A stretch of 64,000 nucleotides of DNA from Allostellaceae bacterium (GTDB lineage: Bacteria; Pseudomonadota; Alphaproteobacteria; ATCC43930; CGMCC-115725). Positions within the stretch are counted from its first letter, which is position 1, and each line of letters opens with the position of its first letter. Location of the stretch: NCBI GenBank assembly GCA_025451725.1, contig JANWJX010000040.1, positions 1 through 64,000 on the forward strand. Direction: 5' to 3'. The notes under the pieces are model-generated. The model did not search any database. It saw only the letters and a program-made list of their open reading frames with translations, and was not told the origin of the DNA. Below, in pieces: positions 1,149 to 5,032 of this stretch. Position numbers and translations under genes: made by a program.

Positions 1149-1985
1149 TCAAGAATTGGAAGCGCGCCAGATTTCAAGTAAGAACGTGGCGACCGTGATA
1201 GCCGCATTCACCACGAGCCTTGCATGTGCAATTTGTAGATCCTTGCTCCTGGTGCGCCCGTGCCCGGTCCCATGTAGATTCCTAACCTCGGCGACACCAA
1301 CCACGATTTGGCCCAGGCTGCTCAAAGTTCTTTTCAGAGTGGCATTGGCTCCGGCCGCCGCAGATTTTGGGTCAAGATCGAGCTGCTCTCGGACGTGCCT
1401 TAGCAGAACGTTGATGTCATCGCTGGTGCCGGGCTCGTCTTTTCCAAGGATAGTTTTCATCACTGTTTCGAGGAGTTCCTTGGCCGACCCAATTGCTTGG
1501 GCTGGGTCACTGACGATTCCCGACCTTATGCGTGCCGCATGACGGTTGAGATCAGCCACATCATGGATAGCAGAAGCTTCTTCGAGCTGTTCCAATGGGA
1601 CGGTCGGCGTAGACTCTGCGTCATCATAGAGTTCAGCATATAGGCCCTGGTCTTTTTGCTTGAGCCAGGCCCTAAGCCCAACGAAATCTTCGATGGCACC
1701 CAGATGTTCGAAATTCGAGCCAACTAGGTGGCGCAGTATCGCGAAGACATTTCCACCATAGTCTTCATCTCCCCATTGAAGGCTCCGCAGCAGGCGTGAA
1801 TGGCCGACAATAATGTCATGCTTTTGAAGCCGATAGCCCAACTCTTCCCATTTGCCCGAATTGAATGTCGCCAAGATAGCCTTCTGCAAAGCTACCATCG
1901 CAGTATCGGTACTGAAGCCGTCCTTCATCTGGGTTTCGATTGGGTCTCCGCGTAACGGCGTATCAGAGGCGTAGCGTAGAGGCAC
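1149..1985 (-). CDS. Abortive-infection family protein (Abi_C-like C-terminal domain)
   Basis: 278 residues starting at GTG 1985, preceded by a GGAGA ribosome site at suitable distance; an internal ATG at residue 20 is the alternative. The N-terminal half (to about residue 150) is not recognised. The C-terminal part (about 160-275) resembles the Abi_C domain, including the signature R235-N-L-H-G-T-G-H242-G, an R-x6-H arrangement like the HEPN ribonuclease motif, then a helix H-A-R-L-V-V-N-A-A with A-T-F-L near the end. Members of this family are found in phage-resistance loci and are thought to act by growth arrest. The gene is divergent from the helicase at 2093 with a 107-base shared upstream region, which suggests co-regulation. 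The reading frame is intact, unlike its two neighbours. Confidence 0.7.
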   Translation of the reverse strand: MPLRYASDTPLRGDPIETQMKDGFSTDTAMVALQKAILATFNSGKWEELGYRLQKHDIIVGHSRLLRSLQWGDEDYGGNVFAILRHLVGSNFEHLGAIEDFVGLRAWLKQKDQGLYAELYDDAESTPTVPLEQLEEASAIHDVADLNRHAARIRSGIVSDPAQAIGSAKELLETVMKTILGKDEPGTSDDINVLLRHVREQLDLDPKSAAAGANATLKRTLSSLGQIVVGVAEVRNLHGTGHGRTRSKDLQIAHARLVVNAAITVATFLLEIWRASNS

Positions 1986-2092
1986 GAGAGGTCTCCGTGT
2001 GTTACATTAAGTAATGGGGATACGAACTCCTAGCTCAACGTGGGTTGAACTGCACATCATGATTTGCTGTAAAAGCCTGTCGCAAACCAATT

Positions 2093-5032
2093 TTGCGCCG
2101 TTCGAGCAACGCTGAAGCTCTCAGACGCGGCATGGGATATTTTTCTGATCATTATAGAGATCTGAAATTTCCGATCGCCGAGAATGGGCAAGCTGGATTC
2201 CGGCCTGCCCAAATCGCCGCCGCACAAGCGGTATCTGCCCATTTCTTTGACGCCAACGATCCCGCGATCGTGACGATGCCCACTGGTGCAGGAAAGACTA
2301 CCGTTCTTATGGCGCTGGCTTTCTTGTTTCGCGCGGAGCGCGTCCTGGTCCTTACCCCGAGCCGGCTGGTTCGGGAGCAAATTGCCGAAAATTTTCGGGT
2401 CCTTCTGGATTTGAAGAGAATCGAGGCCCTGCCTGGGGACCTCGCGACACCGCAAGTGTTCGCGACGGACCACACCATCGGTTCCGAGGAAGCGTGGGAA
2501 ACCCTCCGACGATATGACGTTGTTGTAGCGACGGTTCCGAGCGTCAGCCCTAGGGATGGCGCCATACCCGAACCGCCGCCCGGTTTATTTGATGTTGTGT
2601 TCGTTGATGAAGCACACCACGCGCCAGCCAGAACTTGGAGTCGGCTGCTCGACCTTTTGCAGCATGCTAAGCAAGTGCTCTTTACAGCGACGCCTTTCCG
2701 ACGCGACGAAAAGGAAATCAAGGGCAAGATCGTCTTTAGTTACGATCTTCGCCGGGCCCACGCGGACCGCGTGTTTGGCGACATAACGTTTGAACCTGTG
2801 GACGGGCGCGGCGCGCCCTCTGTGGATATCGCCATTGCCCAGGCGACTGAAGCGCGCTTTCGGCACGACCGAGCTGAAGGTCTCCAGCACTTGATCATGG
2901 TCCGGGCCGACACGCTTTCGAGGGCCAAAGAACTTGAAGGAATCTAGTCCGCAAACACGGGACTACGGCTGGCGTTCGTAAACGGCCAGCACAGTCTCGC
3001 CCACGTCAAACGAATCGTCGCAAAGCTGAGAGGCGACGAGCTCGACGGAATTGTTTGTGTCAATATGTTTGGCGAAGGGTTTAACCTCCCGACCCTAAAG
3101 ATTGCGGCTGTTCACAGCCCGCATAAATCACTAGCCGTCACGCTTCAGTTTATTGGCCGTTTTGCGAGAGTTGGTGAGGCAAACATTGGCCGCGCAACAT
3201 TCCTTGCCGAGCCAACAAACAGTCAGTCGGAAATCAGTGAGCTCTATGAGACCGGCGCGATCTGGCGCGAGATTATCCAGAATCTCGCAGAAGGCCGAAT
3301 TGGCGCCGAGCTCCACGTCCGCGAAGTTCTTGACAGCTTTAACGTGGACGCGGCGCCAGACATGGATGATTTTTCTCTGTATACGGTGCGACCTTATTTT
3401 CATGCCAAGGTTTTTGGGACCCCTGACGGGGTGAACCTCAATGTCGTTCCGGACTTTCCTGATAATCTTCAAGTCATATTCAAGGGCATAAGTGATCCGC
3501 ACGGTGCCGCCGTCTACATTACGCGTGAGGCCGTTCGATCGCCGTGGTCGTCCGACGACCGTTTTACCAATGTTGCCTACGACATCTTCATCTTCCACCA
3601 CAACCGCGATGCCAATCTCCTTTTCGTCTGCGCGTCACGGCGTCCCGCGCAACTGTACACGCGCCTGGCGCGTGAACTGGTCGGCGGAAGACCCCGTCCT
3701 CTGTCGCACAGCAGAATCAGCCGAGCCCTCAACGATCTGGACGCGGCAGAATTTTTTAACGTGGGGATGCGCAAGCGAAACAGAATGGGTAGAAACGAAT
3801 CTTACCGCATCATTGCAGGGCCAAGCGCTGATCGAGCGATTCAAGATACGGACGGCCGGCTGTTCGATCGCGGGCATTGTTTTGGAAAGGCGATCGACGG
3901 TGCGAACGAAATCACGATCGGCGTAAGCACCGCCTCTAAAATCTGGAGCAACACCTATGATCGCATCCCGGAGTTGATGGCTTGGTGTGATCGGCAAGCG
4001 CAAAAAATCGCGAGCGGTCGGGACCCGATTACGGGGTCTCGTCTTGACCTGTTATCTTCAGGCGAAGAGTTGCAACAAGTCCCGGCGGGTGTGATCGCGA
4101 TGGGCTGGGGTATAGGACCTTACCGGGATGCGCCGCCCGTGTTTTACCACCACGGCGATGGCACATTCGCTGAGGCTTCCCTCCTGGACTTCGAGCTTGT
4201 GATACTGGACAGCAAAGAAGGCCGAGTGGCGTTTGCAGTAAAAAATTCTGAAGTCGAATGGCACGGTGTGTTTTCTCTTGCTGCTCCGGAACTGGTTGAA
4301 GCCGTGTCAGAAGATGAGCCTGATCTAACCGTCCATGTGCACAACGCGGACTTTCCGATCGCAGAGTATCTCAATGAGGAACCTCCAACCTTTTACTGTG
4401 CCGACCTTTCAGCAATTGAGGGGACAAGTTTGTTTCGGGTCCCGCCAGACTTACCCACAATCGGAGATGGCTCATTCGAGGTAGTTGATTGGAACGCAGC
4501 CGGGGTCGATATCACAAAAGAAAAGCCCGACGGTGGCCTTAGGTTATCGATCTTCGAATGGCTGCAAAACCGCCTTAACGCATCGGGAGCGAGCGTCGTA
4601 TTCTGCGATGATGGTACCGGCGAGATGGCTGACTTCATTGCTGTCGAGGAGACAGCTACGGGGCCCCTCGTAGGTATGTTTCACTGCAAGGCCAGCGATG
4701 GAGATCGACCCGGCAATAGAGTTCACGATCTTTACGAAGTATGCGGACAAGCCGTTAAATCATGCGTTTGGGTTAGACCAGAGCGCCTCCTGCCTCAGCT
4801 AAAGCATCGAGCTCGCCTTCGCGGAATTGTCGGTTATGTAAAAGGGGACGAGGTCGAAGCAACGCGCATTCTCACCCTTCAGGCCCGTCAGCAAGTTCAA
4901 TTCGTAATCTACGTGGTCCAGCCCGGTATCATGCGGGACGATCGCGATCCACCCGTTTCCAATCTCCTCGCAGCAGCAAATCATTATTTGCTTCAGAGTG
5001 GCGTTGACCAATTTTCTATTGTGGCCAGCTAG
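2093..5032 (+). pseudogene. DEAH-box SF2 helicase with C-terminal nuclease-like domain, split by an in-frame TAG at 2945-2947
   Basis: One frame runs from TTG 2093 (or ATG 2132) to the TAG at 5030-5032, about 979 codons, with a single TAG at codon 285. The N-terminal part carries Walker A P-T-G-A-G-K-T-T (63-70), V-D-E-A-H (171-175) and T-A-T-P-F-R (198-203). After the TAG, M-F-G-E-G-F-N and Q-F-I-G-R-F-A-R (352-359) supply helicase domain 2, so the two open pieces (2093-2947 and about 2948-5032) are halves of one protein. Near residues 840-870 the pattern G-E-x-A-D-F-I, spacer, F-H-C-K-A-S resembles a PD-(D/E)XK nuclease core of the Mrr 'QxK' type with H replacing E or Q. The TAG probably replaced a Tyr codon. 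The split makes loss of function likely unless the stop is suppressed or is a sequencing error. A role in phage defence is inferred from architecture and neighbours. Confidence 0.72.

Follow-up and report, generated by a model that had tools for sequence, protein, structure and literature searches.

A helicase reading frame interrupted by a single TAG

Close to the left end of the window (the whole 64,000-nucleotide stretch of DNA that was analysed), an open frame of about 990 codons runs from 2063 to 5032, bounded by a TGA at 2060-2062 and a terminal TAG at 5030-5032. The only stop codon inside this frame is a TAG at 2945-2947. The following features were assigned:

3-212: contig-edge C-terminal Cas1 remnant of 69 aa (Pfam Cas_Cas1, 22.1 bits, just under the cut-off of 22.3)
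1149-1985, minus strand: AbiJ-like gene, divergent from the helicase gene (Pfam AbiJ_NTD5 and Abi_C)
2132-2944, plus strand: N-terminal helicase part of 271 codons, comprising RecA1 (Walker A, DEAH, TAT) and the start of RecA2; the starts of the relatives L018 and L019 fall at ATG 2132 in the alignment (Pfam ResIII, DEAD)
2945-2947, plus strand: in-frame TAG in place of a Tyr codon (TAT or TAC in 15 of 15 homologues)
2948-5032, plus strand: rest of the gene, which completes RecA2 with motifs V and VI and continues through a middle region and the C-terminal domain to the natural TAG at 5030-5032 (Pfam Helicase_C; 36 of 36 invariant residues; C-terminal end as in L018 and L019)
3065-3067, plus strand: sole in-frame ATG, GTG or TTG between the stop and position 3200, located in motif V (start-codon scan)

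Upstream of the internal TAG the frame encodes PTGAGKT (Walker A), DEAH and TAT. Downstream, MFGEGFN and QFIGRFAR (motifs V and VI) and about 620 further residues are encoded in the same frame. This agrees with the preliminary description, which had reported Walker A, DEAH and TAT before the stop, Q-x2-G-R-x2-R after it and the lack of any other stop for about 980 codons. The 694 open codons 3' of the TAG have a chance probability of ∼3e-13 at local composition, and the other two frames contain 18 and 37 stops over the same region. Pfam assigned ResIII (1.2e-24) and DEAD (2.1e-11) to the N-terminal part and Helicase_C (4.6e-06) to the part after the stop. The gene was classified as an SF2 helicase of the ResIII type: a single frame carries Walker A, DEAH and TAT together with the QxxGRxxR of motif VI, and ResIII and Helicase_C score above cut-off.

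The TAG had been described as separating the two RecA domains. It is indeed a single in-frame stop, but its position has to be revised. On the read-through protein the Helicase_C match extends over residues 261-348; the TAG falls at residue 272, about ten residues into it. The TAG thus lies inside the Helicase_C/RecA2 domain and not in the inter-domain linker.

A TAG at the position of a conserved tyrosine codon

The gene was aligned with 15 full-length relatives from MAG contigs, plasmids and chromosomes, which are up to 69% identical. All 15 are uninterrupted across the site and none has a stop in the column of the TAG. Each encodes Tyr there (7 TAT, 8 TAC), a sense codon one base away from the stop. 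The two closest relatives, L018 and L019 (69% identity), are uninterrupted genes of 967 aa which share start and end with the window gene. They lie on the MAG contigs PLBY01000058.1 and PMOK01000037.1, whose titles name Acidobacteriaceae and Bryobacterales.

Proteins of this kind are annotated as "DEAD/DEAH box helicase family protein" of ∼970 aa, for example WP_338835180.1 on the Bradyrhizobium plasmid pBs5S5a. This protein, L018 and L019 agree with the window protein in length, in domain order and in where they start and end, and identity is 46-69% over the full length. What sets the window copy apart is the TAG at Tyr272. The helicase core is matched by RadD and further SF2 helicases of the ResIII type (PDB 6jde and 7clg; E 7e-16 and 1e-16); this likeness is confined to the core, and the remainder of the protein is without match. 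At least 80% of the protein was matched in 58 plasmid records. The helicase gene is absent from three genomes of the same genus, and a search for a near-identical second copy of the TAG allele gave no match in viral contigs. One family member, on the Rhizobium johnstonii plasmid pRlX3 (L035, 2782-5821), is annotated as two helicase ORFs. Its frame shifts near locus position 3250, and this copy looks broken by a frameshift.

Since Tyr occupies the stop column in all 15 intact relatives, we regard the TAG as an ordinary single-base lesion and not as a new kind of gene. Judged from the alignment, it is very probably explained by one altered base in a Tyr codon, through real mutation or through base error. 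The preliminary description had proposed the same, naming a sequencing error or a point mutation, the latter probably in a Tyr codon, and had suggested the comparison of homologues at this codon that is given here.

A 655-aa open frame starts at ATG 3065, as would be expected if the gene were split into two functional polypeptides that assemble. This start is the only one nearby, lies inside the conserved motif V and is preceded by no sequence resembling a ribosome-binding site. A restart there would leave a helicase fragment in which RecA2 is incomplete. Moreover, the break falls inside the RecA fold. None of the 15 aligned relatives is split at this site, and no homologue that starts separately after the stop, the case named beforehand as speaking against a lesion, was found. 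Based on the position of the sole restart codon and the intact relatives, a split functional gene was rejected, and we consider its probability negligible.

Evolution of the region downstream of the TAG

All family-invariant residues are kept in the window gene, 34 of 34 before the stop and 36 of 36 after it. NG86 dS was saturated in most comparisons. Instead, we used codon-position counts and a relative-rate test with L020 as outgroup, in which changes unique to the window gene were counted against changes unique to a relative. The ratio of window to L018 was 17:10 before the stop and 39:42 after it. For L019, ratios of 19:12 and 41:41 were obtained. Of the differences after the stop, most were at position 3 of the codon (169, 131 and 432 at positions 1, 2 and 3). 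By these counts, the region after the stop has evolved no faster than in the relatives and retains a coding codon-position pattern. Because unique changes amount to 39:42 after the stop compared to 17:10 before it (window to L018), no sign of relaxed selection is seen. An old pseudogene was rejected, as there is no acceleration and no invariant residue has been lost.

Intact invariant residues, lack of acceleration and third-position bias together imply that the lesion is either recent or not real. The contig derives from a metagenome assembly of 70 contigs that is 61% complete, and the TAG is a lone lesion with no decay after it. Both points are in line with a base-calling or consensus error, with the gene intact in the living organism, and we see such an error as a serious possibility. 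A recent real mutation, however, predicts the identical pattern. We favour this latter reading over a consensus or sequencing error and consider a real, recent nonsense mutation somewhat the more probable of the two.

Decoding of TAG and consequences of the stop

Among the 36 large frames of the window, six have TAG as terminator, both halves of the helicase gene being counted. A fragment of the release factor 1 gene is present at a contig edge. No tRNA with a CUA anticodon was found among the 15 tRNA genes of the 61% complete assembly; a suppressor tRNA could lie in the missing part. This genome uses TAG as a functional terminator, as shown by the natural end of the helicase gene, the partial RF1 and the lack of a CUA anticodon among the tRNAs found. 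Stop-codon recoding would be marked by disuse of TAG as terminator or by a cognate suppressor tRNA, and neither was seen. From the use of TAG as terminator, the RF1 fragment and the 15 tRNAs found, a change of the genetic code or suppression was rejected.

Full-length protein could still be made if Tyr or another residue were inserted at the TAG by programmed read-through or amber suppression. The fully conserved frame downstream would fit, and shuffled sequences fold slightly less well than the RNA 3' of the stop (z -1.9, a weak signal). However, a stop at this column occurs in 0 of 15 homologues, the tRNA set offers no CUA anticodon, and TAG also terminates the same gene and four other large frames of the window. 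The context is UAG-UCC, unlike the known leaky stop context UAG-CAR-YYA. We therefore regard read-through as very unlikely. Likewise very unlikely is a tolerated leaky stop which would lower the level of a costly defence-type helicase, with some full-length protein still being made.

Under the favoured nonsense mutation, the starting point would have been an intact gene of 966-967 aa for an SF2 helicase with a C-terminal domain, from a family found on plasmids and near defence genes. One base change would have turned the conserved RecA2 Tyr codon into TAG. Termination there would produce a protein of ∼271 aa from ATG 2132. Because motifs V and VI would be missing from this product, the helicase would presumably be inactive. 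The event itself would be recent. In practical terms, the annotation should merge the two called ORFs into a single gene flagged as interrupted; the lesion has little import beyond this. The helicase family may merit study via an intact member.

The C-terminal domain

The family's C-terminal domain carries an invariant D / GExAD / HxK / YEVxxQxxKS pattern, located at 4600-4780 in the window. Residues invariant in the family are D826, E831, D834, H851, K853 and Q873. This pattern of invariant residues, taken by itself, suggests a putative PD-(D/E)xK nuclease. In six family members the C-terminal region gave no credible Pfam match and no nuclease hit. The read-through protein was modelled with AlphaFold, by itself and together with two relatives, and the mean pLDDT of 35 was too poor for a fold search. 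Nothing specific was found in the literature. This appears to be an uncharacterised SF2 helicase family with a conserved C-terminal domain, located on plasmids and beside defence genes.

Genomic surroundings

Over the window's first 5 kb the G+C content is 0.47-0.58, compared to 0.59-0.70 in the next 7 kb. The low-GC stretch with the AbiJ-like and helicase genes looks acquired. A weak HEPN-like frame, below the Pfam cut-off, is also found in the first 5 kb. The L018 and L019 genes are located near TIR-NLR-like and E1-E2/JAB-like genes, and the copy on the Bradyrhizobium plasmid lies near AbiE genes. From its neighbours, the helicase family looks like accessory, defence-associated cargo. Apart from the Cas1 remnant at the contig edge, no Cas1 match was found elsewhere in the assembly. 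A second stretch of 63 nt at 1011-1073, 931 bp further on, is 83% identical to part of this remnant.
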